64,000 nt of DNA from Dromiciops gliroides (taxonomy: Eukaryota > Chordata > Mammalia > Microbiotheria > Microbiotheriidae): contig NC_057864.1 in assembly GCF_019393635.1 (NCBI RefSeq), positions 469,820,617 to 469,884,616 on the forward strand, read 5' to 3'. The notes beneath the pieces were generated by a model that made no database searches, was not told where the DNA came from, and saw only the letters and a list, made by a program, of their open reading frames with translations. This document shows, in pieces, positions 26,914-63,326 of this stretch (position 1 is its first letter; each line of letters opens with the position of its first letter). The position numbers and the translations under genes are program-made.

Positions 26914-27060
26914 CTTGCTCTGGCGCCTCCACTCGGCCCCTTCCCCTCCCCCCCAGCCCCCCCCGCCCCGGGCCGCCACCCCCTCCCCCATGCCAGCGCC
27001 GCTTGACGGAGGCCGAAGGGGCGGGCCCAGGCTGGGCGGCCTGCGCTGTGCCGCATCATG

Positions 27061-27078
27061 CCGCCACCAGGGGGCGTC
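27061..27078 (+). promoter_or_regulatory. CTCF-like binding site
   Basis: CCGCCACCAGGGGGCGTC matches the CTCF core (CCACCAGGGGGCG) at essentially every key position. It is inside the CpG island, about 150 nt upstream of the NIPSNAP2 start codon. Occupancy is inference. Confidence 0.7.
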
Positions 27079-31949: not shown

Positions 31950-32029
31950 AAACACATGGGATTAGAAAAGCACAGAATTATGTTGAAACCGTCATCCAAA
32001 TATTTAATAAAACAAATTCATTAACCTCG

Positions 32030-32097
32030 GGCCTTGGTCCTTGGCCTAGCCTTCTGGGGCCCTTTCAGCTCGATGTTCAAGTCTGAATCTGACTCCT
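32030..32097 (-). other. Possible small exon of unknown gene
   Basis: On the minus strand a pyrimidine-poor acceptor (CCTTTAG) is followed by ESDSDLNIELKGPQKARPRT, KARG and a stop, with ATTAAA nearby. It looks like an acidic-then-basic C terminus. I cannot join it in frame to an exon from the MRPS17 island, and I do not recognise it. Confidence 0.15.
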
Positions 32098-32962
32098 AAA
32101 GGTGAATAAATCTGATAATAATCCCTGGATCACAGCTATGGAACCGAAAGGGGTGGCTGGGGCTAGAAAGGACCACACAGCCCCAGTCCCTCCTTTCACA
32201 GAACAGGAAACTGAGGCCCAGGGAGGTTCAGTGCCTTGTTCGAGGTCGCAGTCCGCTAATGAACATTGATTAAGACCCGTTGCGGGTCAGGCGCTGCACC
32301 GGGCAGGGCACGGGGAACCCTTCCTTACAGGAAGCCCGGGGGTCAGTAGGGCAGCCTCGCGGGCAGGGGGGCGGCCAGACACGGCCAGGAAGGAGGAGAT
32401 GGAGGGTCCTGTCCACGAAACGGCCGAGTCCGGTGTCGGTGGGACGGGCCCGCGGTCTGAGGAGGAGGGGGTTACACGCTGAGGCCTGGGGCGGGAAACA
32501 CTCGAGAGCCTCCCCCCCACTTCGGGATCCCGGACCAGGCGCTCAGAGGGGCATTAATCGGCCTCCAGGCTGTTAACAGCCGGGGGCCGCTACACGCGAT
32601 CACGCAACCGCGTGCCAGGCCCCTGCCTCGGTTTCCCCCCTGTAACGGGGGGTCGGGGCCCCTTCCAGCCCAGGCCGCACGCCCCTTCTCCCGCCGGGTC
32701 GCGCTGCTCTCAGGCCTGACCCTCCTGGGGGGCAGAGGGACGTGTCCCTTTACCCTCCTCGGGCTTTTCCGCGGGTGCCGGTTCCTTCTCCAGCCCGAGG
32801 CCCGGGCCTAGAGGCCGCGGGTCCGACCTCGAGCCCAGGCCCGCAGCTTCCTCGGCCCTCCCGCCGCTCCGCGGGGTCCCAGAGGCCTCGTACCCCGACC
32901 GAAAGCCGTCCCCGCATCCGACGGCGACGCCTCCACACACCGAGCCCTGACCGTTCCCTCAC

Positions 32963-33012
32963 CTCCAGCCCTGACCTCTGAACTCCGACCGAACGCCGGC
33001 GTTCCACGGCCC
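32963..33012 (-). other. MRPS17: Candidate noncoding first exon of MRPS17
   Basis: A strong donor CTGGAG|GTGAGG (minus strand, exon end 32963) lies just downstream of a CRE and an ETS-like CCGGAA, in the CpG island. Splicing to the acceptor at 31151 would give the expected one-exon 5' UTR. A second possible donor, AGG|GTAAAG, ends an exon at 32754. The transcription start is a guess. Confidence 0.45.
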
Positions 33013-33023
33013 GGAAAACGTGG

Positions 33024-33031
33024 TGACGTCA
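33024..33031. promoter_or_regulatory. CRE palindrome TGACGTCA
   Basis: Perfect 8-bp CREB/ATF site about 20 nt upstream of the presumed MRPS17 start. Confidence 0.7.
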
Positions 33032-33469
33032 CGGCGGACGGGGCGGTGCTCGGCCGCTTCATGCCTGGTCGTCCCGCCTCCCCTGGGCGCAGCCAGAATA
33101 TCCACCACACGCTCGGAGGCGTGGCCTGAGATCTTCCCCGCCCCCTTTCCCATTTCTCCCAATCATAAGGCCCGAGGGCGGTTGGTTGGGCAGGTGTCAG
33201 GATGCCGCGCGGGCGGAAGTGACGGCGGGTTCTTTGCGTTCTTAAGAGTCCCGCGGAATATGAACCGAAGCGTCTCGGAGCTCTAGCGGGCTTTGCGTGC
33301 CTTGTCGCGTCCTGTGCCGGCTGCCCCCGGCATCGCTCCGTCCCGTGGCCTCCTCTGAGCGCTCAGGCACAGCTCGGGGCTTGGAGCTCTCCCCGCCCCA
33401 AATGTACGTGGATGGAGCCTGTTCATCCCCAGACTCGGGGGGCGATAACCACGTCAACAACAATAGTGT

Positions 33470-33625
33470 CGGGGGCAGCTAGATGGCGCAGTGGTTAAAG
33501 CACCGGCCCTGGATTCAGGAGTCCCTGAGTTCAGATCCGGCCTCAGACACTTGACACTATCTGTGTGACCCTGGGCAAGTCACTTAACCCCCATTGCCTG
33601 CAAAAAACAACAACAACAACAACAA
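33470..33625 (+). repeat. WSINE1-like SINE
   Basis: Sense; CAA-repeat tail; duplication ACAACAATAGTGTC. Confidence 0.88.
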
Positions 33626-33714
33626 CAATAGTGTCTGACCGGTGTAGGGCTCGAGAGGTTGCCAGGAGTAGCTTCCCCATTGTACAGCTTGAGGAAGCCG
33701 AGGCTTTTAGAGGT

Positions 33715-33870
33715 AAGAGGATGCAGCGTGCAGTGGAAGGAAGGGTCCTGGCTCTGGGTTTGAATCCCGTCTGGCCACTTACCACTACTGTGTGACCTTG
33801 GAAAATAAGCTTAGCCTCTCTGGGTCTCGGTTTCTTCCACTGTAAAATGAGGGAATTGGGGCAATCCATC
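33715..33870 (+). repeat. MIR-type SINE remnant
   Basis: 'tttgaatcccgtctggccac', 'actgtgtgaccttggaaaat', 'cactgtaaaatgagggaatt'. Confidence 0.6.
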
Positions 33871-44573: not shown

Positions 44574-44980
44574 CAGAAATCATACAATCTGAGGCCACTG
44601 GGTGATATGTCTAGAGGATGTTTCAGGAAAAAGGAAGAGAAATCTAGGTTCATTTGCAGAAACAAATCAGGAGCTGGAAAATGTGTTTGGAACTAAAGTG
44701 AATAACATACAAAGTATTACTTAAATTAAATTGAATAATTAAATTAAATATCCTATTTGTCAATAGCAACCGCTTCAGTGGCAGGATTATGGCTTTGATT
44801 TGGCTTAGAAGTGAAAACGCAATTTGCATGTCTAAAGCGATAAAACTCCATTCTGCAAAGCTATTTTGGAGAAGAATCATTTTCTACTTGCCTCATTTCC
44901 ATTTTATGAAATATAACTTTAGAAATCATTTTTTATAATCTGGAGAGATGACTCCTTTTTTTATTATTGTTCAATATCAG

Positions 44981-45109
44981 GTCAATTCATCGACTGGAAG
45001 GTCGTTATTTCAAAAAAATATGTCCATCAGGGGGTTGAAGAAAAAGCAGCCAAAGACTTTCAAAGTCAAAGTTATCACAATGGATGCCGAGATGGAATTC
45101 AGCTGTGAG
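44981..45109 (+). CDS. Merlin-like exon with start codon
   Basis: Acceptor AATATCAG precedes 44981, so at least one exon lies upstream. ATG at 45020 gives [20 protein letters not shown] then [10 protein letters not shown], aligned to human merlin from Met9 (MSFSSLKRKQPKTF). The frame stays open from 44981 ([13 protein letters not shown]), so a start in an upstream exon cannot be excluded. Donor GAG|GTAAGA. Confidence 0.88.
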
Positions 45110-48100
45110 GTAAGAGACACAGTGATATATTTTTATAAATCACTCAGAGAAAAAGGAATCTTGGCTTTGGCCATTCTGGTTTCTCTGGGAAATATTTTAT
45201 AAGCACCAGGAGCAGAGGAATGTGTAGGAAAGTATGAAAATTGTGTAATTTTCATGGATTTTCATTAATTTGCACAATTGATTTTTTTTTTGGGGGGGTG
45301 AGGCAGTTGGGGTTAAGTGACTTGCCCAGGGTCACACAGCTAGTGTTAAGTGTCTGAGGCCGGATTTGAACTCAGGTCCTCCTGAATCCAGGGCTGGTGC
45401 TCTATCCACTATGCCACCTAGCTGCCCCTTAATTGATTTTTTAGTCTCCTGAATACTAAATGAATTAGCTGTTAGTTACTCAGACTTGAAATCTTTTACC
45501 ACTGGAATCCTGGGTGAATGTGTCACAGTGTTAGGGGCTGTCTTGATGCATAGACACTAACCAGAAGCACATGTGTATCAGTAGGACAAGTTTGCACAAA
45601 GCCCCACAGTAAATCTTCCTTTTTGGCTTCCAGGAACTCTATGTTGACCAGCTGCACATGGGTTATTCTATTGACTTGGTGTTCTTTATTGACCTTCTTA
45701 AAATACTGTAGAGAATAAGAGGATGAATCTTTGACAGTGATCCAGGTGTTGGTAAAGGCTTATTCTTCCTTCAAGACTTAGCTGACAACTTGGTAACACC
45801 AATGAACTAAGCATTTCTTAGATCAATGATGCACAAATCTTTGGTACCTTAGTCTGAGGTGCTTATCTCTGATCAAATGGGGAATAGTAAAAGCAGGATA
45901 CTCCATTCTGAGAAGTGGCGAGAGTGATTTCAACACCTCTTCCATTTGGGGACATCTCTTCTTGTTTCTGAGTGTCCTGAGTACACGAGGCCATTTCCCT
46001 CCACATAGGGATTTCCTGGTTCTAGCCTCAGAGCTATGGGCAGTACTTACTGAAGATGGAAAGGTTCAGTGAGATGCCAACAATCACAAGGAGTTTCTTG
46101 ATCTAAGGCTTTGGCTGATAACATGCTATCTATAAACTAGAATGGTTGAGAACAGTCAGGCAGATTGAAAGAACCCCCTAGACATCATGAGGATTGAGTC
46201 ATATTCTTATTCTTCTTCCAGATGAAATGGAAGGGGAAAGATTTGTTTGATCTGGTGTGCCGAACTCTAGGGCTCCGGGAAACCTGGTTCTTTGGCCTTC
46301 AGTATACCATTAAAGGAGTCTGTGCCTGGCTGAAGATGGAAAAAAAGGTAAGGAAAACCCCCAACCACCAACTCCTTAATAGAGTGAGTCTTTTGGGAAA
46401 ACATCACGTAAATGATTTCTTACATGGTATTTAGTTTAGGTGTGACAACAACTCTAGGGCAGTTAAAAGTGTTTCTCATGATAAATACATGTGACACAAT
46501 ATACAAGAATAGAAATGATAGTGAATCATATATTTAAAAAAATAAAATGTTCATGATTATACAAATATAACTTATATCAGATTGCTTTCTGTCTTGGGGA
46601 GGGGGGAGAGAGGGAGAAAAATTTGGAACTCAAAATCTCATAAAAACAAATGTTATGGGCAGCTAGGTGGCCCTGGATTCAGGAGGACCTAAGTTCAAAT
46701 CTCACCTCAGACATTTGACACTAGCTGTGTGACCCTGGGCAAGTCATTTAACCCCCATTGCCCCACCAAAACCCCCACAAAAATAAATGTTGAAAACTAT
46801 CTTTAAACGGATATTGATTGAACACAAACTGAAGCATGCTATTTTCACTTCTTTAATTTTTTCCTTTTATTCAAGTTTTCTTATACAACTTGACTACTAT
46901 GGTCATGTTTTACATAATCATACATGTATAACCTATATCTGATTGCTTACCACCTCAAGGAGGGGCAAGGGGAGGGAAGAAAGGAGGGAAACCAAAACTA
47001 TAAACAAAAATGTTTATTACTTTAAAAAGAAAGAAAACTATGTTTACATGTAATTGCAAAATGATGAAATACTTTTATGATTTAAAAAATAAAAAATAAA
47101 ATAAAATGATCAACATTGGAAAAAGATCCTTCAAAACAGGTGAAGATCTGAGGATACGTGCCAAATAGTTTCTTGTTAACTGTCTAAAGTCTTTTGTTTC
47201 TATTGAAGCATGAAACTTTTCCTACAGATTTGCTGGGGGTAAAATATGGACAAATGCCTTCTCTGTGTTGGTTTTTTGCCCACTGGTTTCTAATATACTC
47301 TTTCCTTCCATATGTGGTTGCCATTGAAATGGGCATTGTTGGTCTTTTTCCCAAAGAAATCATGGAAAGGGGAGAGGGACCCACATGTACAAAAATATTT
47401 ATATCTGCTCTTTACGTGGTGACAAGGAATTGGAAGTTGAGGGGGTGCCCATCAATTGGGGAATGGCTGGACAAGTTGTGGTATATGAATACAATGGAAT
47501 ACTTATTGTGCTGTAAGAAATGATGAGCAGAAGGAGTTCAGAGAAACCTGGAGGGTCTTGTGTGAGCTGATGATGAGTGAGATGAGCAGAACCAGAAGAA
47601 CATTGTACACAGTGTCATCAACATTGAGTGTTGACCTACTGTGATGGACTATATTCTTCTCACCAATGCAATGGTACAGAAGAGTTCCAGGGAACTCATG
47701 ATAGAAGAGGATCTCCAAATCCAAGGGGAAAAAAAAAAGAACTGTGAAGTATAGATGCTGATTGAACCATACTATTTCTTTTGTTTTGGGTGCTGTTGTT
47801 TTTTTTTTCTATTTTGAGGTTTTGCATTACTGCCCTGATTTTTTCTCTTATAACAGGATTAATGCAGAAATAGGATTAATGTTATTATGGATATATATGT
47901 GTGTGTGTATCTATATATCTGTATATAGATATATAGACATAACCTATATCAGATTACCTGCTGTCTAGGGGAGGGGGGAGGGAGGGGAGGGAGGGAGAAA
48001 AATCTGAAATTGGAAAGCTTGTATAAACAAAAGTTGAGAACTATCTTTACATGTAACGGAAAAAAAATAAAATACCTTACATGAAAAAAAAAAAGAAATG

Positions 48101-51100
48101 GGCATTGTTAGCACGATGACTTTCCTCTGCAGTTCCTAATACTTAGCATTTTGCCTCTTTTTATGTTTGCATGCTTGGAAACAGGTTTTGGAACAAGAAA
48201 TTCCCAAGGAAGATCCAACACAGTTCCGGTTTTTGGCCAAGTTTTACCCAGAGAAGGTGGAGGAAGAACTCCTTCAAGAAATCACTCAACACCTGTTTTT
48301 CCTGCAGGTCAGGGGGCTGATGGAAATAGTACTCTTTCCTGAAATCCTTACTGTTCTGCCTCCTTTCCCTTCTAAAGTGCCTTAGAATAGCATCAATCAG
48401 GTTTCCTATACCTTCCCATCTGTCTGTTTTGTGAGGAGAGCTAAGTGTTACCTAAAGCCACTCTATTTACATACCTGCCATTGGGAGGTGATCAAGCTGA
48501 GAGACTTCAGAAGATGCATGGTTTTGTAGAAAGAGAGAAGAGAGAAGCTTGGGTTTGGATCCCACCACAGCTACTCAGCTGGGTGATTGTGGGAAAGTCT
48601 TTTTTTTTGCTGGGCAATGAGGGTTAAGTGACTTGCCCAGGGTCACATAGCTAGTAAGTGTCAAGTGTCTGAGGCTGGATTTGAACTCAGGTCCCCCTGA
48701 ATCCAAGGCCAGTGCTTTATCCACTTCACCACCTTGCTGCCCCCAGGAAAGTCATTTAATCTCTCCGAGACTTACATTGTCATCTTCCAAATGGGAGTGA
48801 TAGTTATGGGGATAAAACACTCCTTGCTTTTTATAGGGTCAAGATATTTGAGCCACTCTGACTGCCTGTTATTTCTGCTAGGGTCTGTTGACTTTCCAAG
48901 GTTTTTCTTTGCTATATATGTGAAAGTGAAACAGTATATGTAGCTAGAATAATTGGAAAAAATGAACCACGAAGGTCAGCAGAACCATGCTTTGAATAAT
49001 CAGTTGGTGATCCTCAGAGCTAACATCCTTCCACCCTTGTATCAGTGTTTGGAGGTGGCACAGTGTTAGTGTGCTGACCTGGAGTAAGGAAAACCTGAGT
49101 TCAAATGCTACCTCAGATATTCATTAGCTGGGCAATTCCTTGTCTGTAAAATGAGTAGAACTTAGCTCCCAGGGTTGTTATGAAGATCAAATGAAATAAT
49201 ATTTATCAAAAGTGCTTATCATAGTGTCTGGCACATAGTAGGCACTTAATAAATGCTTGTTTCCTTCCTTCCTTCATATTCAGATCATGATAAGCTACCA
49301 GTAAGCTCAAGAGTTTAGTTGTTTGTTTCTCATAAATAGTGGTTTATTTGTTTTTGTTTGTTTGTTTGTTTTGGTGGGTTTGGAAGCTCAGAGAACATGT
49401 AAACAAACCCATAATTAGAGGGAAAGGGGCAGCTAGGTGGTGCAGTAGATAGAGCAACGGCCCTGGAGTCAGGAGGACCTGAGTTCAAATCTAGCCCCAG
49501 ACACTTGACATTTACTAGCTGTGTGACCCTGGGCAAGTCACTTAACCCCAATTGCCTCACAAAACAAACAAACAAAAAAAAAACCCCAAACAAAATAGAG
49601 GGGAATTGTGACTTGAAAGATTTAATTTTTTTCTGATTCATTTCCGGACCAGCAGTGAACAGACTCCAGAATGCAGTTCTCTTCCATTATGTGATGAAAT
49701 ATCCTTGGCTGATATTTACATAGCACTTTGACGTTTTGGAAGTGCTTTATACACATATACTACAGACATAGTTACCCCTATTTTAGAGTCAATAGGCATG
49801 GAGCTAAAAAGTCTCATTTGGTTGTTGTTCCATCCTGTCTGACTCTTCATGAAGCCATTTAGGGTTTTCTTGGCAAAGAGAATGGAGCGGTTTGGCTATT
49901 TCCTTCTCCAGCTCATTTGACAGATGAGGAAATGGAGGCAAACAGGGTTAAGTGACTTATCCAGGGTCCCACAACTAGTAAGTATCTGAGTCTAGATTTG
50001 AACTCAGGTCTTCCTGACTCCAGGCCTTGTGCCATCTAGCTACCCTAAAAAAAATAGGAAGGATTAAAACTCACAGTTGTTTTTTGTTTTCACTGATTCC
50101 ATACTAAGAGCTCTTCCCACTATACTGTGCAGTCTCTCGGTTAAGACCAAAGTTAACAGTTTGAAGACTTGTCTGGGTGCACAGAGTCTCGCGTTGTTGT
50201 AGCCTGACATAATGCTTTGCTCATAATAGGGGTTTAATAAATGTTTCTTGAATCAATTATTCCCCCAGATGCTGTTGGGTAGGATATTCATAGGGTTAAA
50301 ATACCTGAATTTTCCCTTTGACCTTTGAAGTGTTACTTGATGATGGTTTTCCAAAGCAGGGCTTTAGAACTTTTTCCGCTCGAGACCCTTTTTGGCCCAA
50401 GCAAAATTTACACGACCCCAGGTCTATAAAACAGGTACACATCGCCTTTTACCATTGCTAAATTTTTCATGACACTCACATTCAGTGACTCGACAACCCA
50501 GAGTTTAAGAAGCCAGGGTCTAGAGGCACCTTGGAGTGACAGGAGCACCACAGTTTTCCTTGAAGTTGCACAACAAAACCCACCTTTTTAGTGTTTCTTT
50601 TCTTTTGAACCTGCCTCAACTGGCCTTAATGCTTAGAGATGCAATTAGCGAAATTCTCCTCATTCCAAAGCAGGAAAGCTGGAGACCAAAACATATTTGA
50701 ACTTGCACAGTGCCCTGATGATAAAGCATTTAAGGTCACACCTGATTGTTAATTGCAGAACATGTACAGACAACTGGATCTTAGTAAATTTCCATTTTAC
50801 ATCTAAACCATCCTGGCAACATTTACATAACTTGTAGTAAGGGGATCCCGCAGGAGCCAAATATATGGGACAAAGCCTAGGCCTCATTGCTTATGTTTGC
50901 TGCATAGAAAGGTAAAGAAAAGAATGATAAAGAGTCGTGGTAGTATTTATTTATGTCAAAAACAACATACTCAGAAGTGTCTCTCAGTCATTTTCTGTGG
51001 TAAAATACACTGTTTGTATCATTATGAGGATTATAAAGACTTTCACTTGGGAAGCAAAATATTTTCCATTTTTCCATTTTAATAGTTCGGCAATGCCTTT

Positions 51101-54100
51101 ACCTGTGTTTCAAATCAAACCCATTTACTTGACTCATCTGAGAATAGAATGCAGAGAAATATGAGTCTTCCGTGGCTGGGCTTCTGTCTGGCTCAGGACG
51201 TTTTTGGAAGGAGAGCTAAGTGTGACTTGAAATTTCTCACTTTTTCCACATGGGACCTCGTTAAGACTGGGAGCTAGTCTTTCCTAATTCTTACTTTGTC
51301 CATCTGAAGGAGAGATTTGGGTAGACATCTCAGGATGGGCTGAGGCAACAGCTAGCAAGGTTCCCAGAAACTGGCCCATAGAATGGGCTGAGTTGGAAAG
51401 AAGCAAGTGATGAATGCTCTTCCCGTGAATATGGTACCATGAGTCATCCTGCTGATTCCTGTGTCTGAATTATGTTGGCTTTCCTTTTAGTTCCTCCTTC
51501 TGTTAGGAGAACACATCTGCTATTGCCACTGAAATAAGATCCTGGGAGATAATAGGGAAAACATAAGGGATGTTTACATTCTCCCTGTGTTCACAGTGTC
51601 AGGCTTGAAGAAGTTGTTTGCTTTCCATCATTTAGACTCCAAAGTCATATTTCCTTTTCAGTTGATATTTGATAATATTTAAGTCTTCAAAGCCATCTAG
51701 ATTTGGGGATGGGTGGGGTAGGTGGGGCAGGCTTCAATTCATTCACCAAGGTGGATAAAATGGGTAAATGGGGGAGGGGGAGGGAGGAATCTCCAATTCT
51801 TTATCAGTGTAAGGTTTTCTAGAGGTCTTTTTTTTTTTTCGGGGCAATGGGGGTTAAGTGACTTGTCCAGGGTCACACAGCCAGTAAATGTCAAGTGTCT
51901 GAGGCCGGATTTGAACTCAGGAACTCCTGAATCCAGGGCCGGTGCTTTATCCACTGCGCCACCTAGCCGCCGCCCCCCCCTCCCCCCAGGACTTTCTTAG
52001 GGGAGAAATGGGCCTCAGATTGTGTGGAATGGATGGGCTTAATTCTTTCTTTCCAAAAAAGTCCTAAATAAAATAAATATCTGAGTTGTCACCCAGTAAC
52101 AACTTATCTTTCTGGAATGTGGCTCCCTTAGCAGCCTCAGCTATCTAGAATACCATCCCCAAAAAGGAAATAAACAGAAAAGACTTCTAAACAGCCAGAA
52201 TAGATGTCACAAAACCCATTCATGAAAGCTGATAGCTAGCATTATCTCATTCAACTCATTTTACAGAGACAGACAGAGGTCAAGTAACTTAGTTAAGGTC
52301 ACATGACTAGGAAGTTTCTGAGATTAGATTTGAACTCAGGTTTTCTTGACTCTGGGTCCTGACATAATTGTAGGCTATTAGGTAGCAAAGACCATAGAGT
52401 TACCTTCAGTCTTTCCCAACATCAGGGTCTTTTCCAATGAATCCCGTCTTCTCATTATGTGGCCAAAGTGTTTAAGCCTCAGCTTCAGTATTTGACCTTC
52501 CAGTGAATGGTCTGAATTCATTTCTTTAAGTATTGACAGATTTGATCTCCTTGCTGTCAAAGGGACTCTCAAAAGTCTTCTAGCACCACAAATTTGAAAG
52601 CACTGAAAGGCTCTCAGCTTTCCTTATAATTCAACTTTCATAGCCATACATTGCTCCTGGAAAAACCATAGCTTTGACTATATGGACCTTTGTCAGCAAG
52701 ACGTCTCTGTTTTTTAGTTTGCTGTCCAGATTGGTCATAGCTTTCCTTCCAAGAAGCAAGCGTCTTTTAATTTCATGGCTGCAGTCACTGTCTGCAATGA
52801 TCCTGGAGCCCAAGAATATAAAGTCTGATTTTTTCTCGCTCTATTTGCCAGGAAGTGATGGAACCAGTTGCCAAGATCTTAGGGGTTTTTTTGTTGTTGT
52901 TTTTTTTTTTTTTACGTTAAACTTTAAACCAGCTTTTATATTTTTGTCTTTCACCCTCTTCAAGAGGCTTCTTAATTTTTCTTCACTTTCTGCCATCAGA
53001 GGGGTATCACCTGCATATCTGAGATTGTTGCTATTTTTCTGGGCAATGTTAATTCTGGCTTTTGATTCATTCAGCCTAGCATTTTGCATGATGTACTCTG
53101 CATTTAAACTAAATAACCAATGAGTTATTCCTTTTTTAGTTCTAACTATTGCTTCTTCTTTTGTGGGGGAAGGGGTTGTGGGGTTGGGACATAAACTGAC
53201 CAGCTAAACTAAAGGACAGACACACCTTGAGAAGTAAGGGAAAGAGGCAGCTAGGTGGCACAGTGGATAAAGCACTGGCCTTGGATTCAGGAGTACCTGA
53301 GTTCAAATCCAGCCTCAGACACTTGATACTTAACTAGTTGTGTGACCCTGGGCAAGTCACTTAACCCTCATTGCCCTGCAAAAATTAACACAAAACAAAA
53401 AAAAAAACAAAAGAGAAGTAAGGGAAATAAGCCCCTTAGGTGTGGCTGCTGCCTGGTCAGTGCCAGGGGACAGAGATAACTCCAGAAATCAGAACAACCA
53501 CCCTCACCTGACTTCTCCCAACCCACCCCCAGTAAGGACTTCGGTCCCCATCTACCATCTAAAAAAGCTTTTTCCTTTCTCCTGTTCCCAGAGATAGGTA
53601 TCTCAGAGAATCATCTCTGAATTATCTCCCTTTCAGAGAAGGCCTTGCCTTCTCTCTTGGTCTCCTTTCTCTCTCTCTCCTTTTTTTTTTTTTTAATGAG
53701 GCAATTGGGGTTAAGTGACTTGCCCAGGGTCACACAGCTAGTAAGTGTCAAGTGTCTGAGGCCAGATTTGAACTCAGGTACTCCTGAATCCAGGGCCGGT
53801 GCTTTATCCACTGCTCCACCTAGCTGCCCACTATATTGTACTTTAAAGGGAGATTTCCTTGCAAAACGCCCATGAGGCTGATTATTGCAACAACAATAAT
53901 AGCTTACATTTATATAGTACCTTATTCCTGACAAAGAATTTTCTTCACAATAGCCCAGCAAAGTACCGTCATCTTCATCCTCATCTTACATTGTTCTTGC
54001 CTCTTCTTCAAAATTTTTCCCCCAGTTAGTACTATTGTTAACTGTGTTTCTCTCCATCCTATTCACTCCCCATGATATTTATTCTATTTTCTATCTTCTT

Positions 54101-57100
54101 TTACCCTTTTCCTCTTCAAAAGTGTTTTACTGAGGCAGCTAGATGGCGCAGTGGTTAAAGCACTGGCCCTGGATTCAGGAGTACCTGAGTTCAAATCTGA
54201 CCTCAGACACTTGACACTTACTAGCTGTGTGACTCTGGGCAAGTCACTTAACCTCCATTGCCTGCAAAAAACCCCAAAACAAACAAAAAGTGTTTTACTT
54301 CTGGATCGTTGTCATTTTTAATATTATACCCCAGTACTGCTTTTCTCACCCTTTTGTTAATGATGAGGGCTTTTTCATTTCTTCTAAGGGATTCTTGCCC
54401 TCATTAGTATATGTAATGATCACCTGAATTAAATTCACCCATTCCTGCCTATTTGATTTCACTGATACCCAAGATGTAGATATTGAATTTTCCATCTCCT
54501 GTTGGACCACATTCAATTTACCTTGGTTCATGGAAGTCAACGAATCTAATCCTTGCCCAAAGCATTATTCAGATTCCTCTGTGTCTAATCCCTTATTCTC
54601 AACTTTTTTTTAGGCAACCTATTCTGTTTTGAAACATAGCTGATTATTGGGAATTTTCTCCTTTTATTGAGCTGACATATACCTTCTTTTTAAAATTCTA
54701 CCCACTCGGGGGGGCGGCTAGGTGGTGCAGTGGATAAAGCACCAGCCCTGGATTCAGGAGTTCCTGAGTTCAAATCTAGTCTTAGACACTTGACACTTAC
54801 TGGCTGCGTGACCCTGGGCAAGTCACTTAACCCCCATTGTCCTGCAAAAAAAAAAATTCTACCCACTTTTCCTCATTCTGCCCCTCTAGGCCAAGTAGAA
54901 ACTCTTCAGATCCTGATCAGAGAAGGCAGGTAAATTTGGAATACGGTTTAGAAATTTGGCATCCAAAACTTGGTTAAATAATTGAAATTAGAAAAAGAAA
55001 GTTATGCTTAAAGCAGTGAATTCTCAGCTAGTCAGAAAATTCTACCACCCAGAATGACATTGTCTCCAAGCTTCTGATTAGTTGAGGCCTTACCTAGATT
55101 ATATAAATTTACTATTTTGTAAAGTCATTGTGAGTTCAAAGGGTGCTTTGTTTGGATTTATTCAAATCGCTTAACCTCTATCTGCCTGTTTCCTGTGTCA
55201 TATCACACTGATGATTCATATTGAATTTGCAGTCCACTAAAACCCCCAGATATTTTCAGACAAATCTACCTTTCAGTCTTCCTCGGTCTCCCCCTAGTCT
55301 TTTACTTGTTAGGTTGATTTTTTCAAATCAGTTTATAAGATTTTACATTTATCTCTGTTAAATTTTATCTGATTAGATTTAGCTTAACATTCTAGCTTGG
55401 CAACATCATTTTGAGCTCCACCTCTGTCATTCAGTCTACTAGCTATTACTTATAGCTTTGTGTGATCTGCAAATCTTATAAGTATGCCACCTTTATCCCT
55501 GGCACTGATAAAAATGTTAAAACAGCCTGAGCCTGAGCACACCTCCCTGGGGTCTTCTACTGGACAAACTACTCTCTTCCCACAGTTGCTCTTTGGGTTT
55601 GGAGATTCAGTCTGTTCTGACTCCAGCTAATTGTACCATCATCTGTTCCATGTGGCCCCGCTGGTTCCACTGGGTAGCATGAAACTCAGTTGAATGTTGC
55701 CCTACAGTCTAGGAAAACTATCATCTTACCTTGATCTACTAGTTGGATAACCCTATCAAAAAAACCGGAAATTACCTTAGTCTGACATAACTTCTTCTTG
55801 ATGAAAATGTGCCAGTGAATATTGAATTTTTCCAGGAATCCAAGGCAAAATCATTGGCCTTAGTTTCCAGGGTCCATTTTCATTTGTCTTTTGAAAATCA
55901 GGGCATTTTTCCTTTTCTAGACCCATGACACCTCTCATTCTCTACAATCTTTCAGAGATAACAGTCCTTGTGATTCAGCAGATAGGTCTCCAGATCTTTC
56001 CAGAAGGGTCAATGGAATTCAACTGGGCACAGTGACTCAGCCTCCTTAGAGGCAACTGGACATTTTCTTACTTACTGCTTATCTTGGGTCTCAACTCCTT
56101 ATTAGGTATTTTTGTTCTTTTCAGCCCAAAGATAATTTTTGTTGGGAAGGAGAAAAAAAAAAACCTCAAGCAAAATAAAAGTTGGACAGCTCTACTTCTA
56201 CTCAGTCTGTTGTCATGATTAGATGAATAAATTTTTTTTTTTTAGTGAGGTTAAGTGACTTGCCCAAGGTCACACAGCTAGTAAGTGTTAAGTGTCTGAG
56301 GCCGGATTTGAACTCAGGTACTCCTGACTCCAGGGCCGGTGCTCTATCCACTGCGCCACCTAGCTGCCCCTAAAATTTAAAAAAAAAATAAAAATATTTT
56401 TTAATTTTCCAGTTACATGTATATTTTCTAATCTTTTTTTTTTTTTAAGTGAGGCAATTGGAGTTGTGACTTGCCCAGGGTCACACAGCTAGTAAGTGTT
56501 GAGTGTCTGAGGCCAGATTTGAACTCAGGTACTCCTGACTCCAGGGCTAGTGCTCTATCCACTGCTCCACCTAGCTGCCCCTACATGTATATTTTCAACA
56601 TTTGTTTTCATAGGATTTTTAGTTCCAAATTTTTCTCCCACCCTCCCTTCCCTCCCTCCTCCCCAAGATGGAAAGCAATCTGATATAGATTATATAAGTA
56701 CAATCACATTAATCATATTTCTGCATTTAGAGGAATAAAAATTTTTTTAAGTTTTGGTTCTTACAGTAATGAATCCTCAGCTGTCCAGAAAATTTTGCTA
56801 GACACAGTGTTTTAGTCCCCAGGGTTCTTTTCATCCAAAGACAGAAACTGTTGCATATTGGTCTACTTAGGTCTGGCACCTAGTAGGTGCTTAATAAATG
56901 TTTTTGATCATTCCATCTATCCCATCCCTACTCCTACTCCATTGTCCATTGTCAATATGGCTAAACAAAGTCCTAAATGTTTTTATTGTCTTTAGTTTCC
57001 TTCCCTGTCTTAGCTCTTTCTGAACTTGGGCCCACGTGTATACCTGGGAAAGTAGTTACAAAGAATGTGTGAATGGGAGCATAGTTTTAGGACTTTCCAA

Positions 57101-60100
57101 GCACATCAATATGCAAATAGTTCTTCCCCTTCCTACCCCCTCTTCCCCAACAGAATATGTTTGCATGGCATCCTGGAATCTTTCACAACCTGAAAGTATC
57201 CTTGGTTGCTAAATCCAGCTGTGGCCTCACAGGCACCTTTGTGGGGGTGACAAGGGAAGACCCAGATTCTCAGAAACTCCCAGGTCTTGGTGCTCTCCCA
57301 GATGATATTATCCTTTTCCACCTTTCCAACCAGATTAAAGCATTTCCATAGGGGATTTCCAAAGTAGGAGAAGTTCTCTAGGGAAGGGTGTGTTCCATAG
57401 AATGTGCAAGTGATGTAAAAAAAAAATTTTTTTTTTTTTGCTGGGGCAATGAGGGTTAAGTGACTTGCCCAGGTCAGGCAGCTAGTAAGTGTCAAGTGTC
57501 TGCAACTGGATTTGAACTCAGTTCCTCTTGAATCCAAGGCCGGTGCTTTATCCACTTCACCACCTAGCTGCCCCCGTGCAAGTGATTTTAAAGTGATATC
57601 ATTAGGGTTTGGGCCACCAAGAATTTCTATTCTTATTCCTACCAATCCAGCAAGACAAATAAAGGGCCTTCCATGTGGAAAAAATCTTGCTAGTCTGGGA
57701 TACCAAGAAGGAAGTAGTCTTTCCAAGAGCTTCTGTGGTGGGTTATAACTAGGAGGCAAGTCAATCCAGGTGGCTCAGAGGAAGGAGAGAGTACTAGCCA
57801 TTGGGGGATTCATTCATTCAGAAAGTCATTCAATCAATATTTATTAAGGGCCTACTGAGTGCCAGGCACTATGCCAGATATACAAAGAGATATGGAGATG
57901 AAAAACGAAACCGTCTACCCTCAAACCACTTATAGTCTCATAGGAAGGGGACATATACTAATTAGTTTGTGTGTGTGTAAATATATATATGAGATATATA
58001 ATGTATATATTTATATATAATATGTATAAGAAATCTAATTGGTCAATACACAATATATCTAGATGCCAGGAATTTCAGTGTATGGCGGTGGGTGAAGACT
58101 CTAATACATGGGAGGACCAGGAAAGCCCTTTTATTGGAGGGGCACCTTGAGCTCGGGGTAGGAGGAAGCTTGGCATTCTAAGAGGGGAGGCATATCGGCC
58201 TTGGTGGGCAGGAAGTTTATAGAAAGGCACAGAGACGGGACTGAGGTCTATGAGGAACAGGTCAGGAATGTAGACTGTAGGAGAAGGGATGTATCACTGG
58301 GGAAAGATAAGTTGGAACTGGATTGTGAAGGGCTTTTTTTGTTTTTAGTGAGGCAATTGGGGTTAAGTGACTTGCCCAGGGTCATACAGCTAGTAAGTGT
58401 TAAGTGTCTGAGGTCGGATTTGAACTCAGGTCCTTCTGAATCCAGGGTGGGTGCTCTATCCACTGCGCCACCTAGCTGCCCCCCCCCTTTTTTTTGGTGA
58501 ATATAGCATAATAATTTAACACAAAGTTCGCTTAGAACATTTTTTGACTTGATTCAAAAAATCAAAATGAAGACAATCTGAACAATACGTCGTCCCCTTT
58601 CTAAGCTGCCTTAGCCTATTGGATGATGAATGCAACCTCAGTTTTCACCAGTATAAGTTGCACAAAACCTTTTTTACAAAATTAAAATGAAGGGGCAGCT
58701 AGGTGGCGCAGTGGATAGAGTATAGGCCCTGGAGTCAGGAGGACCTGAGTTCAAATCCAGCCTCAGACACTTAACACTTACTAGTTGTGTGACCCTGGGC
58801 AAGTCACTTAACCCCAATTGCCTCACTTAAGAAACAAAAAAAATTAAAATAAAAAGAATAGGAAAGAGACCCTCATTGTGCTCCTGTTGTGGGGACTTAT
58901 TTACTTGATCACTGGAATGTTTATTTGACCACTGGTACCTTTAACAAAATCCTAACTTGGGGCCAACTAGAATCAGGCATAATTGTTATTATGTCTTAGG
59001 TGAAGAAACAGATATTAGACGAAGAAATCCATTGTTCTCCAGAGGTCACTGTTCTGTTGGCTTCATACGCTGTCCAGGCTAAGGTGAGTGTACAGAACTT
59101 TTGCCTTTACTTTTAGCTTTTTAAAAGTTTAATGTCATTGGAAAAGTTGAATATTGCTTCTTACTGAATATAAAAAAGCACATACCACGGACTGTTTTCC
59201 TAAAGAAACAAGGTAATAATGTAAATAACCTCTTTGGGGAGGATGAAATACATTCAATCAGTTCAATAGTGTTTTTTTTTTCTTAGTCATGCCTGACTTT
59301 TTGTTTGTTTCTGTGCTTGTTTTTTTTTGGTGGGGCAATGGGGGTTAAGTGACTTGCCCAGGGTCACACAGCTAGTAAGTGTCAAGTGTCTGAGGCCAGA
59401 TTTGAACTCAGGTCCTCCTGAATCCAGGGCTGGTGCTTTATCCACTGCGCCACCTAGCTGCCCCCATGCCTGACTTTTTGTGACCCCATTTGGAATTTTC
59501 TAGGCAAAGATATTAGAATAGTTTGCCATTTCCTTCTCCAGCTCATTTGACATATGAGGAAACTGAGGCAAACAGGGTTAAGCGACTTCCCCAGGGTCAC
59601 ACAGATAGTAAGTGTCTGAGGTTGGATTTGAACTCAGGAAGTTGAGTCTTCCTGACTTCAGGCCTGGTGCTCTATGCATTAGGGCGCCACCTAGCTGCTC
59701 TTCAAGTATCTTTAGGGCTGTTATAGAAAGGCAGTGTTGGGGCAGCTAGGTGGCGCAGTGGATTGAGCACCGGCCCTGGAGTCAGGAGTACCTGAGTTCA
59801 AATCCGGCCTCAGACACTTAATGCACACTTACTAGCTGTGTGACCCTGGGCAAGTCACTTAACCCCAATTGTCTCACTAAAAAAAAAAAAAAAAAGAAAG
59901 GCAGTGTTGGAGTAGTGGAGTAAAGAGCTGATCTTGGAACCAGGAAGATCTGGATTCAAGTTCTGCCTCTGACAATCACTGGCCACATGACCCTGGGTCA
60001 GCCATTTGTCTCTGAGCTTTCTAGGCACCTACCTAAGTCCAAGTTGTGGAGAGATTGCTGATCTGCATCTGGAAATCACGGGTGTGGTCCCTGTTCTGAC

Positions 60101-63100
60101 CTTGGCCACCAGACTGCAGGGAGGCACTTCTCTGTCTCTGGAAGTACTCTTCAATCCAGGATCACTGGCTGCCAAGACAGCTAGGTGCTGGATGAACTAG
60201 AATGATGGGCCTTCAGTCAAGAAGACCTGAGGTCAAATCTTTGTCTCAGACACTTACTGGCTGTGTGACCCAGGGCTTGTCACTTAACCTCTGTTTGCCT
60301 CAGTTTCCTCAACTCTAAAATGGAGATAATAATAGCACCCCCTCCCCTAGGGTTGTTGTGAAGATCAAATGAGATAGTAATTATAAAGAGCTTAGCACAG
60401 GGCCTGGCGCATAGTAGGTTCTATATAAATGTTAGCTGTATTATTATCTCCCAGCTCTGGGCATCTTCTCAGCTTGTCCCCCATGCCTGGAATATTCTCT
60501 GCTCAGCTCTGTCTACCAATTTCACTGATTTCCTTTAAGTCTCAGTTAAAATCCAGTCTTTTGTAGAAAGCCTTTCCCAACCTCTCAGTTAATCACTTCT
60601 TACTAATCCTCCACAGAGCTTGTGTGTATAGATTTGATTATACATTGTCTCCCCCCTTAGATGATGAACTCCTTGAGGGCAGGGACTGTCTTTTGCCTCT
60701 TTTTGCATCCCAGCACTTAGCACAGTGCCTGGTATACAGTGGGTGCTCAATGAATGTTTACTGATTGATTGATCTTCAAGTTAAAAGGAGTATTGTTTAT
60801 ATTTCAGTATGGTGACTATGACCCTAACTTTCACAAGCCAGGCTTCTTGATCCAGGATGAGCTGTTGCCCAAAAGAGTAAGTATCTAGAAAATTAATTGC
60901 ATTTCTCTCCCCCTTTTGGGTTAAGAGATGTCATGAGACGTTCGTGATGAGAAAGGAGGGGATTCTTAAGAGACAGCTTTTCTCTTAATTCTGCCCATCT
61001 CTGTGCTCTCCTTCCAATCCTTCAAGGCCCCTGGAAATCCCCACTTTCTCTGTGAAGCTTTGTCCACCCACTTCAGCCAGCACAGATTTCTTTCCTTCTA
61101 ACTTTTAAGGGCACTCATTCTCTGACCCCTGAGTTTCCTCATTCAGTTGTATTTCATTTTGTACTTTAGCACGGGCTCTGTGCATCCTAAGGAGTCTGGA
61201 ATAGAGTTTAGGGACCCATGAATTGGCAACTTAATATTTTGATAACTTTGTTTCTGTCAAATTGTTTTCCTTTGCAGTTCCACAGGCTTCATCAATACAA
61301 AGAAGTAAAGCACCTGCTTTACTTTACAAGTGTTGTTCTGTGTTTGCAACTTGGTCTAGTGTTAAGAATATAGACTGGTGGGGGCAGCTAGGTGGTGCAG
61401 TGAATAAAGCACCGGCCTTGAATTCAGGAGGACCTGAGTTCAAATGTGGCCTCAGACACTTGACACTTACTAGCTGTGTGACCCTGGGCAAGTCACTTAA
61501 CCCCCATTGCTCTACAAAAAAAAAAAAGAAAAGAAAAAAGAAGAATATAGACTGGGAGGCAGGAGACCTGGGTTCTAGTCCTGTCATTGACTCTGAGACC
61601 TTGGGAAAGTCATTAGACTTAAAGGTCATGAGTTTTCCCCTCTCTCTGGCCTCGAAGATCTCAGAGGTCTCTCTTAGCTCTACAATCCTATGAGTCCCCC
61701 AAACATCTTTTTTTTTTGCTATTGTTAGTGAGGCAAATGGGGTTAAGTGACTTGCCCAAGGTCACACAGCTAGTAAGTGTTAAGTGTCTGAGGCCGGATT
61801 TGAATTCAGGTACTCTTGACTTCAGGGCTGGTGCTTTATCCACTGTGCCACCTAGCTGCCCCCCCCCAAACATCTTTGAAGGAAAGACCTGGAAGGTTCT
61901 GGGGCTCTCGGCTGCCTGGTATCCAACATAGGTAGCATGGGGGTTCCACAAGGATTTTTAATTAAACTGGAATATATGGCATCTTCTGTGCCACGTGGAA
62001 GGATGAGGCTCTTGGGAAATGTAGGAATGACAGCCAGCCCTCTTTTCAAATAGCAGAGCAATACTCCTTGTTTGCTGTGTGTGAGTGTGTGTGTATGCGT
62101 GTGTGTGTGTGTGTGTTGATTGACACAGAGGCCAAAGGTCAACCTCTCATTCATTATTCTTTTCTTTTCTTTTTTTTTTGTGGGGCACTGAGGGTAAAGT
62201 GACTTGCCCAGGGTCACACAGCTAGTAAGTGAAGTGTGGGAATACTCTCCCCCACAGATACTGAGTGTAGTGGTGGGTGAGTGTGACCTGGATTGATGTA
62301 TGGATTGTAGTGGATTTATTATTTCTATACTTGCTTTATAAAGTATAAAATACCAGTTTTTTCTTTGCCTTATTGTTGAAGAAATGATTATCTAGTAGTT
62401 TGCTAAGTGTTGTTATTATGAATGGCTGATTTTGTGTAAATAGAAGCACCTCAGTGGAAATCTGAGGGTTGAAGGGGTCAATAGGGGAAATATATTGCTC
62501 CATAACAGGGTTACCTCTAGGGATTTGAGAGAGCTGGAGCGTAACTTCGTGGTGGGGGTCCTTCCCTGGAAATGCAGACTTGTTAGTGTGAGGGTGGGTT
62601 GGTGTGAGTAAGCCAGCATAGGGAATGAAATGGGAATCCACATAACCTGTTTGGAAGGGGCAGCTAGGTGGTGCAGTGGATAGAGCACCAGCCCTGGAGT
62701 CAGGAGTACCTGAGTTCAAATCCGGCCTCAGACACTTAATGCACACTTACTAGCTGTGTGACCCTGGGCAAGTCACTTAACCCCAATTGCCCGGCAAAAA
62801 CAAAAATAAAAATAAAATAACATCGCCTGTTTGGAAGGTCTGAGCTGCCACAGTGGGTGGCCAACTGTTACACCCTCCTTTGTTACATTTAGTAAGACTC
62901 CATCTAAGAATACGGTCTTTTTTTACCTCTTAGGACTGTTGTGAGAACCAAAAGAAAAAGCATACATGAAGTGCTTTGTGATAGAAAAATGTTAGCTCTT
63001 ATTATTAACGAAATTATCCTGTGATGGAAATTACCCAGAGCAGTTGCTTTTGGGGTTGAGGAAGAGGAGGGTGATAAGGATGGTGGCGGTGGTGAAGAAG

Positions 63101-63326
63101 AGGAGGGGGAGGAGGAAGATGAGGATGTGGAGGAGGAAGGGGAGGATGCTGCTGCTGAGGATGACAATACCGCTTCCATCTTTAGCTAGCAATGGAGGAA
63201 GCTTTTCCTCCTCAGAAGTCTCAGTTCTTCTTTTTCTTGGCAGGTCCTCAAGCAGTATCAGATGACAGTCCACATGTGGGAAGAAAAAATAACAGCCTGG
63301 TATGCAGAGCACAGGGGTATTGCCAG
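45020..63326 (+). CDS. Merlin (NF2)-like FERM-domain protein, 5' part; continues past the window
   Basis: Paralogue of the NF2 tumour suppressor merlin, a membrane-cytoskeleton linker that binds lipids and junction proteins through its FERM domain and feeds the Hippo pathway. Six intact exons: 45020-45109, 46222-46347, 48185-48307, 59000-59083, 60808-60876 and 63244-63326. Lengths of exons 2-6 (126, 123, 84, 69, 83 nt) and all phases equal human NF2. Residues 1-72 form most of the F1 lobe ([28 protein letters not shown]), 73-191 reach into F2 ([46 protein letters not shown]). Against human merlin from memory about 149 of 191 residues agree (78%): clearly nearer merlin than ezrin/radixin/moesin, but not NF2 itself, which should be nearly unchanged in marsupials. 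No stop, frameshift or broken splice site, so it looks functional. F3, helix and C-terminal tail lie beyond the right edge. Confidence 0.93.
45283..45428 (-). repeat. WSINE1-like SINE
   Basis: Antisense; duplication AATTGATTTTTT. Intron 1 of the merlin-like gene. Confidence 0.88.
46222..46347 (+). CDS. Merlin-like exon 2
   Basis: 126 nt, 42 codons, phase 0 both ends, exactly as NF2 exon 2. Begins [20 protein letters not shown]; four changes from human merlin, clustered in [12 protein letters not shown]. Confidence 0.96.
46530..47110 (+). repeat. Two tandem L1 3' ends
   Basis: Two successive copies of the terminal L1 segment ('cttatatcagattgctttct' with the GGAGGGG run, ending 46,810; again to 47,100 with an A-rich tail). 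A truncated SINE (46657-46787) splits the first; its duplication is AAATGTT. In intron 2 of the merlin-like gene. Confidence 0.65.
46657..46787 (+). repeat. WSINE1-like SINE, internally shortened, in L1
   Basis: Sense; lacks about 25 nt after GGTGG; duplication AAATGTT. Confidence 0.82.
47341..48094 (+). repeat. 5'-truncated L1 insertion with intact target duplication
   Basis: L1 3' UTR ('gcccatcaattggggaatgg' to AATAAAATACC and poly(A)) bounded by the 15-bp duplication GAAATGGGCATTGTT at 47326-47340 and 48095-48109. It lies 90 nt upstream of merlin-like exon 3. The perfect duplication suggests a fairly young copy. Confidence 0.88.
48185..48307 (+). CDS. Merlin-like exon 3
   Basis: 123 nt, 41 codons, phase 0. 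Begins [20 protein letters not shown] and ends [16 protein letters not shown]. It is the most diverged after exon 1 (about 29 of 41 identical to human). Confidence 0.96.
48601..48744 (-). repeat. WSINE1-like SINE
   Basis: Antisense; duplication GGAAAGTC. Confidence 0.85.
49055..49272 (+). repeat. MAR1/MIR-type SINE
   Basis: 'gaaaacctgagttcaaatgc' to 'ggcacttaataaatgcttgt' with TTCC repeats at the end. Confidence 0.7.
49427..49585 (+). repeat. WSINE1-like SINE
   Basis: Sense; AAAC-rich tail; flanks AGAGGGAA / AGAGGGGA. Confidence 0.85.
49815..50045 (-). repeat. THER/MAR1-type long SINE
   Basis: 'gttgttccatcctgtctgac' to 'gtgccatctagctaccc'. Confidence 0.75.
50357..50516. mobile_element. hAT-type MITE, same family as 20566-20734
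   Basis: CAGGGCTTTAGAAC ... GAGTTTAAGAAGCCAGG, and the interior ('aaatttttcatgacactcac') matches the other copy. Duplications decayed. Confidence 0.7.
50520..51820. other. Merlin-like gene intron 3, unique part
   Basis: 1.3 kb without SINEs or recognised coding sequence; candidate place for intronic regulatory elements. Confidence 0.45.
51829..51973 (-). repeat. WSINE1-like SINE
   Basis: Antisense; followed by a C-rich run. Confidence 0.85.
52215..52365 (-). repeat. MIR/MAR1 SINE remnant, antisense
   Basis: 'cattttacagagacagacag' and 'tagatttgaactcaggtttt'. Confidence 0.55.
52370..53160 (-). repeat. RTE-class LINE fragment (reverse transcriptase end)
   Basis: Minus-strand translation gives RTE/BovB-type phrases in order: [20 protein letters not shown], then [20 protein letters not shown] and [17 protein letters not shown], then [20 protein letters not shown]. 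Several frame breaks; the catalytic YADD box reads YAGD, so it is dead. In intron 3 of the merlin-like gene. Confidence 0.85.
53246..53412 (+). repeat. WSINE1-like SINE
   Basis: Sense; duplication GAGAAGTAAGGGAAA. Confidence 0.9.
53681..53830 (-). repeat. WSINE1-like SINE
   Basis: Antisense; full body. Confidence 0.85.
54133..54286 (+). repeat. WSINE1-like SINE
   Basis: Sense; duplication AAAAGTGTTTTACT. Confidence 0.9.
54709..54855 (+). repeat. WSINE1-like SINE
   Basis: Sense; duplication ATTCTACCCACT. Confidence 0.9.
55220..56110 (-). repeat. CR1/L3 LINE fragment (reverse transcriptase)
   Basis: Antisense phrases known from mammalian L3/CR1 relics in order: 'tgataaaaatgttaaaacag', 'acctccctggggtcttctac', 'tgtaccatcatctgttccat', 'tttttccaggaatccaaggc', 'tgaaaatcagggcatttttc'. 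Ancient and heavily decayed. Confidence 0.75.
56231..56370 (-). repeat. WSINE1-like SINE
   Basis: Antisense; lacks the GCAATTGGGG segment near the tail; flanked by (A)TAAATT. Confidence 0.82.
56385..56745 (-). repeat. L1 3' end, antisense, split by a SINE
   Basis: Antisense of the terminal L1 segment: 'acatgtatattttcaacatt', 'aaatttttctcccaccctcc', 'atctgatatagattatataa'. SINE 56435-56581 is flanked by the duplication ACATGTATATTTTC. Confidence 0.7.
56435..56581 (-). repeat. WSINE1-like SINE in L1
   Basis: Antisense; duplication ACATGTATATTTTC. Confidence 0.88.
57421..57575 (-). repeat. WSINE1-like SINE
   Basis: Antisense; duplication GTGCAAGTGAT. Confidence 0.88.
57795..58000. repeat. Ancient mammalian repeat (L2/MIR class, unresolved)
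   Basis: 'gtgccaggcactatgccaga', 'cactatagtctca'-like wording follows; relative of 34545-34745. Followed by AT-rich DNA. Confidence 0.4.
57967..58030. repeat. AT-rich low-complexity tract
   Basis: TG then TA repeats following the ancient repeat. Confidence 0.8.
58333..58484 (-). repeat. WSINE1-like SINE
   Basis: Antisense; followed by a C then T run. Confidence 0.85.
58692..58841 (+). repeat. WSINE1-like SINE
   Basis: Sense; duplication AAAATTAAAAT. 160 nt upstream of merlin-like exon 4. Confidence 0.88.
59000..59083 (+). CDS. Merlin-like exon 4
   Basis: 84 nt, 28 codons, as NF2 exon 4: [20 protein letters not shown] then ASYAVQAK. Donor AAG|GTGAGT. Confidence 0.96.
59270..59700 (-). repeat. 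THER/MAR1-type long SINE split by a younger SINE
   Basis: 'tcatgcctgactttttg' is duplicated on both sides of the SINE at 59303-59465, then 'ttccttctccagctcatttg' to 'gccacctagctgct'. Confidence 0.8.
59303..59465 (-). repeat. WSINE1-like SINE nested in a long SINE
   Basis: Antisense; duplication CATGCCTGACTTTTTG. Confidence 0.9.
59740..59895 (+). repeat. WSINE1-like SINE
   Basis: Sense; duplication AAAGGCAGTGTTGG; has the short insertion ATGCAC before ACTTACTAGC, shared with 62657-62815. Confidence 0.9.
60190..60450 (+). repeat. MAR1/MIR-type SINE
   Basis: 'cagtcaagaagacctgaggt', 'ttgcctcagtttcctcaact', 'gtgaagatcaaatgagatag', to 'aatgttagctgtattatta'. Confidence 0.75.
60455..60777 (+). repeat. 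L2 LINE 3' end
   Basis: Typical L2 terminal phrases: 'gaactccttgagggcaggga', 'cagcacttagcacagtgcct', 'gtgggtgctcaatgaatgtt', ending in TGATTGATTGAT repeats. 30 nt upstream of merlin-like exon 5. Confidence 0.8.
60808..60876 (+). CDS. Merlin-like exon 5
   Basis: 69 nt, 23 codons, as NF2 exon 5: [20 protein letters not shown] then PKR. Donor AGA|GTAAGT. Confidence 0.96.
61379..61538 (+). repeat. WSINE1-like SINE
   Basis: Sense; duplication AAGAATATAGACTGG. Confidence 0.9.
61710..61863 (-). repeat. WSINE1-like SINE
   Basis: Antisense; duplication CCCCAAACATCTTT. Confidence 0.88.
62077..62117. repeat. (TG)n microsatellite
   Basis: TGTG tract broken by AG and ATGCG. Confidence 0.92.
62160..62229 (-). 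repeat. WSINE1-like SINE, truncated
   Basis: Antisense; only the tail-proximal 60 nt to AGCTAGTAAGTG; then unrelated DNA. Confidence 0.75.
62657..62815 (+). repeat. WSINE1-like SINE
   Basis: Sense; duplication CCTGTTTGGAAGG; same ATGCAC insertion as 59740-59895. Confidence 0.9.
63056..63172. repeat. GA-rich purine tract
   Basis: GGA/GAA/GAT triplets over 115 nt, ending 70 nt before merlin-like exon 6. Its minus-strand reading (poly-Ser) is not a gene. Confidence 0.85.
63244..63326 (+). CDS. Merlin-like exon 6
   Basis: 83 nt ending in phase 2 (AG of an Arg codon), as NF2 exon 6. Reads [20 protein letters not shown] then AEHRGIA. It holds the merlin Blue Box, here YQMTVHM rather than YQMTPEM. 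Confidence 0.96.

Follow-up and report, generated by a model that had tools for sequence, protein, structure and literature searches.

A second merlin gene, nf2b, in the marsupial Dromiciops gliroides: an old vertebrate paralogue with a proposed isoform-2-like function

The tumour suppressor merlin, the product of NF2, is generally regarded as having a single gene in mammals. Its main isoform, isoform 1, ends in LTLQSAKSRVAFFEEL, and isoform 2, in which exon 16 is kept, ends in PQAQGRRPICI (PMC4530865). Isoform 2 has been stated to be unique to mammals (PMC3942481). Fishes carry a second merlin gene, nf2b, and a survey has described the fish paralogue as lost in mammals; six animal names, platypus and opossum included, were looked for in its main text and all were absent (PMC7035326). 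A literature search of partial coverage found no publication that reports nf2b from a marsupial or monotreme. Here a stretch of 64,000 nucleotides (nt), hereafter the window, on contig C4 of the assembly of Dromiciops gliroides (monito del monte, a South American marsupial) is described, which contains the first six coding exons of such a gene. With a probability of roughly 0.85, we read it as nf2b, a second merlin gene of jawed vertebrates that arose by block duplication, was kept in marsupials and has the isoform-2-like function proposed below. The part of the gene inside the window is as follows (window numbering).

44981-45019, plus strand: 5' untranslated portion of the first coding exon, preceded by AG at 44979-44980
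45020-45109, plus strand: coding exon 1, whose Met1 aligns with merlin Met9
46222-46347, plus strand: exon 2, 126 nt, the same length as its counterpart in this genome's orthodox NF2
48185-48307, plus strand: exon 3, 123 nt, equal in length to exon 3 of orthodox NF2 in the same genome
59000-59083, plus strand: exon 4, 84 nt, placed by its splice sites, translation and the gene-wide exon chain
60808-60876, plus strand: exon 5, 69 nt, placed on the same three grounds
63244-63326, plus strand: exon 6, 83 nt, carrying YQMTVHM, the counterpart of the merlin blue box

Each of the six exons is followed by a GT donor, and exons 2-6 are preceded by AG acceptors. The six together comprise 575 nt and encode 191 amino acids (aa) without a stop, and the translation equals residues 1-191 of the 648-aa Dromiciops protein P0001 letter for letter; databases already label this protein 'merlin-like'. 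Identity to human merlin (P0147) is 149/191 (78.0%). A tblastn search with a human merlin query matched the six exon stretches at E = 4e-22 to 6e-8, the next-best match in the window being at 0.9. Against PDB, the first 114 residues scored 4.6e-59 to merlin and 2.4e-37 to ezrin, radixin and moesin (ERM) proteins, so that merlin is ahead. Rfam at gathering scores gave no match anywhere in the window.

The remainder of the gene was sought in the 120 kb to the right of the window. Eleven further exons were located there, which brings the gene to 17 coding exons, every intron being GT-AG. They form a single intact frame of 1947 nt that is closed by a stop and translates to P0001; the gene extends over 45020-97423 in window numbering (C4:469865636-469918039, plus strand). 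A spliced cDNA copy on contig C3 matches all 17 exons in order. Because the match of this copy to its parent starts at 44980 (one base may be chance), the AG at 44979-44980 is supported as a used acceptor, and with it a non-coding 5' exon upstream. When the sequence of the copy ahead of its match was compared with the window, only chance words were found and no such exon. For six exons, the lengths were set against those of this genome's orthodox NF2, 11 lying outside the comparison, and five of the six can agree (2, 3, 10, 11 and 12): exon 11 is 123 nt in nf2b, with candidate lengths of 123 or 127 in NF2. Exon 8 is one codon apart (138 nt in nf2b vs 135). In P0001, Pfam FERM_N, FERM_M and FERM_C each score above cut-off. 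An AlphaFold2 model from a 28-row alignment reached a mean predicted local distance difference score (pLDDT) of 60.8 and a predicted template modelling score (pTM) of 0.25; residues 550-648 and others, the FERM start included, are without confident structure, and the model is too weak to bear on head-to-tail closing.

The initial annotation, made from the window's letters alone, had described six canonically spliced exons with about 78% identity to human merlin, NF2-like lengths and an exon 1 that differs at its start. These points were reproduced, the identity figure exactly and the lengths for exons 2 and 3, the two compared within the window. Its expectation that exons 7 onward are present and intact was likewise borne out, and the retained introns that it had invoked against a retrocopy extend over the whole gene. 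The 17-exon, intron-bearing structure rules out a retrocopy. A pseudogene was also rejected, on the one intact frame over 17 exons and on the few departures from invariant columns described below. The intact frame, together with this conservation, argues that nf2b is probably in use.

Is the gene a copy of NF2 peculiar to marsupials? Orthodox NF2 is present elsewhere in the same assembly, at C1:9931196-10039821 on the minus strand, near NIPSNAP1, as a separate paralogue would lead one to expect. Its six matched exon stretches (some extending into introns) are 89-98% identical to bat NF2 and 57-89% to P0001. Koala and tammar each have both an NF2 and an nf2b protein, on different contigs. A maximum-likelihood tree was built from 38 FERM domains, comprising 36 vertebrate rows chosen from 239 proteins, fly merlin and human moesin; shark NF2, lamprey and zebrafish are not among its rows. 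Two merlin clades were recovered, one of NF2 (13 rows, support 98/91) and one of the window gene with fish nf2b (23 rows, 99/97), and skate, chimaera, coelacanth and ray-finned fishes fall in the latter. Moesin lies outside the merlins by choice of root. Because two long outgroups meet in this tree, it was rebuilt with each of them singly: nf2b and NF2 were supported at 97/72 and 91/91 with fly merlin, and at 99/95 and 94/89 with moesin. By its place in the tree, the window gene is the orthologue of vertebrate nf2b. The split between nf2b and NF2 would predate the divergence of jawed vertebrates, a date drawn from the cartilaginous nf2b alone because the tree rows are without shark NF2 and lamprey.

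A marsupial- or Dromiciops-specific duplicate of NF2 was the natural thought while the gene was known from one marsupial only, as in the initial annotation, and Dromiciops does have a lineage-specific copy, though of nf2b and not of NF2. Yet in all three builds the gene groups with that of skate, chimaera, fish, reptile, bird and monotreme, apart from marsupial NF2, and the nf2b block differs from the NF2 block. We give such a duplicate almost no credence, and a recent NF2 duplicate was rejected on the tree. The separate merlin paralogue that had been proposed is thus confirmed, as two clades. On these groupings it is no marsupial novelty: nf2b is of a known kind, common to cartilaginous and bony fishes, reptiles, birds and monotremes.

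The distribution of nf2b was read from the best 120 of 3952 matches, which are cluster representatives only. These include marsupials, turtles, alligator, birds, squamates, monotremes, skates and rays, chimaera, coelacanth, ray-finned fishes and one midge protein. Five further marsupials (wombat, tammar, devil, koala and bilby) have an nf2b protein among the matches listed. No placental was found among these best 120, and neither amphibians nor opossums (Didelphidae) are named there. As a marsupial has the gene intact and monotremes are among those listed with it, the loss belongs on the placental side: placental mammals, humans included, have apparently lost nf2b.

The neighbourhood of nf2b bears on its origin. 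The other features of the window are these; NIPSNAP2 is presumably the gene also called GBAS.

26913 down to 3277, minus strand: NIPSNAP2 coding exons, from human queries and Pfam NIPSNAP
26001-27250, no strand: CpG island at the NIPSNAP2 start (GC 0.56-0.77, CpG observed/expected 0.72-0.76)
31134-31012 and 29016-28750, minus strand: two coding stretches of MRPS17, from tblastn with human MRPS17 (83% and 78%) and Pfam Ribosomal_S17
32001-33750, no strand: CpG island between MRPS17 and nf2b (GC 0.58-0.72, CpG observed/expected 0.62-0.99)

Over the six exon stretches cleanly matched by both human queries, identity is 80-91% to NIPSNAP2 vs 64-82% to NIPSNAP1; Pfam NIPSNAP was found in two of the five exon frames given. 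The second CpG island could be a two-way promoter shared by MRPS17 and nf2b. On the plus strand, nf2b stands head-to-head with NIPSNAP2 on the minus strand, with MRPS17 in between. NF2 is likewise head-to-head with NIPSNAP1 (C1:10110338-10130103, plus strand), about 70 kb away as measured by first matched exons. This shared NIPSNAP-merlin arrangement is the mark of an old block duplication. In humans, a microdeletion has been described that removes only three genes, THOC5, NIPSNAP1 and NF2 (PMC9456353). The order reported for human 7p11 is SEPT14, then ZNF713, MRPS17, GBAS, PSPH and so on, and no merlin is named in that account (PMC2999539). Duplication of the block would predate the divergence of cartilaginous from bony fishes and would be explained most simply by the early vertebrate genome duplications; fishes, reptiles, birds, monotremes and marsupials would then have retained nf2b, with apparent loss in placentals.

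As far as the region was examined, nf2b is flanked by MRPS17 and SBDS. An SBDS exon lies on the minus strand at about 103486-103791 in window numbering, some 6 kb to the right of nf2b. A search of 184 kb for VOPP1 and LANCL2 found neither gene and gave one proline-rich chance match. Elsewhere in the genome, NIPSNAP-like stretches with several stops were seen at C4:420959134-420959817 and C3:127218222-127218605 and are probably processed pseudogenes. ERM-like loci, not named by a test, were seen at 531.7 Mb of C3, 400.6 Mb of C4 and 28.06 Mb of C7.

The end of the protein is where nf2b departs most clearly from the main isoform of merlin. Exon 17 codes for 11 residues, VQQHDSDVIYI. A search with the tail only reached marsupials only (8 proteins among 20 candidates), and its spread was read instead from the best 120 proteins listed. 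Among these, VIYI ends 39, namely 37 of the 52 amniote rows (P0057 counted) and two of the 67 fish rows, both polypterids; a sister isoform of the polypterids ends in LEDV. The other 15 amniote rows end otherwise, many being partial or isoform models; devil P0005 and wombat P0002 are included, perhaps through annotation. Ends like EEV or EEL are found in 32/67 fish rows and 0/52 amniote rows. The 14 kb that follow exon 15 of Dromiciops nf2b were searched for an FFEEL-type end, and none was found. From their length and place, the 11-residue last exons of nf2b and of NF2 isoform 2 are probably homologous, and amniote nf2b appears to have been fixed on an isoform-2 type end. The PICI end itself was seen in 23 of 119 NF2 proteins, including axolotl, coelacanth, lizards and birds (P0178 and P0219 among them), an observation that runs counter to the statement in PMC3942481 that isoform 2 is unique to mammals.

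Class II PDZ ligands have hydrophobic residues at positions 0 and -2. The VIYI tail is therefore a putative ligand of this class, and through its conservation it allows the purpose of an isoform-2-type end to be tested directly. The initial annotation had called the gene a spare copy. It is indeed a second intact merlin gene, but a spare role does not follow from this: the FERM half is well kept, but the C-terminal end is unlike that of the main isoform of merlin, for which reason its function may differ from merlin's. The nf2b protein may, like merlin, be positioned at the cortical membrane by its FERM domain, and may scaffold Hippo kinases. Because the isoform-1 end is lacking, it would behave like merlin isoform 2 and be less able to close head to tail. 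Its last residues may bind a PDZ protein that sets a particular membrane site.

An isoform-2-like protein might also oppose merlin. The tail of nf2b is laid out like that of isoform 2, and human isoform 2 expressed in flies was reported to rescue merlin loss poorly and to interfere, as it appears, with endogenous merlin (PMC3942481); nf2b might therefore act as a dominant-negative antagonist of NF2 and not as a second tumour suppressor. However, mice in which either isoform alone is deleted neither die nor form tumours, according to a study cited in PMC3942481, and both isoforms act as tumour suppressors according to the title of PMC4530865. Combined knockout of nf2a/b in zebrafish raised Schwann-cell proliferation (PMC11646113), though in many fishes the nf2b protein still has an end like that of merlin. 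We consider the antagonist unlikely, with about one chance in four in its favour, and retain the reading of nf2b as a kept second merlin.

The fly result counts against that reading, and so do four further observations. Pfam ERM_C scores 19.9 on P0001, under its cut-off of 23.4, and covers 38 of 77 positions. The blue box, which we take to be YQMTPEM, reads YQMTVHM in the window gene. FERM identity between koala and platypus is 274/305 for nf2b vs 285/289 for NF2 (the koala NF2 model being without one exon), and nf2b is thus the faster of the two. The absence from placentals, finally, is based on the best 120 of 3952 matches and the published human gene order, with no genome search. The altered blue box is found in 10/10 listed marsupial entries of intron-bearing nf2b, and YQMTPEM is kept in 12 of the best 120 relatives from the nf2b search vs 116/119 NF2 proteins. 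Koala P0192 and tammar P0216 were seen to read YQMTQEM in NF2, and the one NF2 row left over gave no match to the motif.

Could the faster change mean that nf2b is decaying or non-functional in Dromiciops, where another copy exists on C3? Arginine replaces T223, a residue without variation among those of 14 other amniote nf2b proteins in which the site is present, and this fits decay as the faster rate does. Against this, all 17 of 17 exons are intact and wombat, tammar, devil, koala and bilby have the protein. At 356 alignment columns the 14 other amniote proteins are invariant; the window protein differs from them at 7 of these columns and the C3 copy at 26. Decay is thus judged very improbable, and nf2b in Dromiciops is better read as a maintained gene. 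Its FERM domain is identical to that of wombat at 301/312 positions and to that of platypus at 276/312; residues 549-626, before the tail, match at 44/75 and 19/75. The context of the PAK site Ser518, presumably KRLS, is kept in P0001 (DLKRLSLEIERER).

The C3 copy lies inside an element bounded by sequences like long terminal repeats (LTRs).

C3:592010937-592012883, minus strand: P0029, 649 aa in one open frame, an intronless nf2b copy found by spliced match to its parent
619-5491 of C3:592008000-592017999, two repeats: LTR-like direct repeats flanking P0029

The 5' and 3' untranslated parts were copied too, the latter with a repeat like a short interspersed element (SINE). A polypurine-like stretch, a primer-binding-like site and a 4-bp target duplication were read by eye, and LTR-mediated retroposition is known in animals (PMC8232201). 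Between P0029 and its parent, both branches together, silent divergence is 0.122 and non-silent divergence 0.044 (ratio 0.36; 45 silent and 66 non-silent changes; Fisher p = 7e-7). Five other marsupials share 530 invariant columns; 37 of these are changed in the copy only, 7 in the parent only and 13 in both alike; the copy therefore arose in the Dromiciops lineage and changed faster than its parent. Its departures from the amniote-invariant columns (26/356) are accompanied by a blue box of YQMTAHM, and its merlin frame is intact. In a simple neutral simulation without insertions or deletions, about 35 of 400 frames stayed stop-free at 3% change and 3-10 of 400 at 4 to 6.1%. The LTR pair shows 18 mismatches over 371 + 156 aligned sites (about 3.4%; some sites counted twice). 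Divergence is lower between the LTRs than at the silent sites (18/527 vs 45/399, p = 4e-6), and thus the element moved again after capture or its LTRs were homogenised. That the second merlin of monotremes and marsupials was fixed as isoform-2-like with a C-terminal PDZ ligand and that, in Dromiciops, an LTR retroelement captured the nf2b mRNA as the one gene recognisable in it, has moved at least once since and kept the frame is a joint proposal that we put forward tentatively, at somewhat less than one chance in three.

The persistence of nf2b in two mammal lineages, although placentals appear to have lost it, bears on the view of merlin as a single-copy gene. If the joint proposal above is true, placentals and every mouse model lack a component of growth control. 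Work on devil facial tumours takes NF2 as the merlin gene (PMC5562891). The devil also has nf2b (P0005), which bears on how Schwann-cell tumours of marsupials are read.

How does Dromiciops nf2b compare with the systems already described? The closest are the fish nf2b genes (zebrafish nf2b, and the elasmobranch and coelacanth genes named 'tumor suppressor b'), which belong to the same clade, zebrafish standing outside the tree rows. The fish entries listed are about 83-88% identical to the window gene over exons 1-6. Unlike Dromiciops, with VIYI, fish rows have EEV- or EEL-like ends in about half of cases (32/67) and end as VIYI in the two polypterids only; many others look partial. Dromiciops nf2b further differs from fish nf2b in a 207-nt exon before the last exon; the protein stretch that this 207-nt exon encodes is likewise long in other amniotes. 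With NF2 isoform 2 it shares the FERM domain, the helical region, the Ser518-like site and an 11-codon last exon ending hydrophobic-x-hydrophobic. It differs from isoform 2 in being a separate gene beside NIPSNAP2, in its changed blue box, in its 78% identity over exons 1-6 and in having no FFEEL-type alternative in the 14 kb after exon 15. Ezrin, radixin and moesin have the FERM-helical-C-terminal plan in common with nf2b, but score far below merlin, and moesin stands outside the merlins in the tree as rooted.

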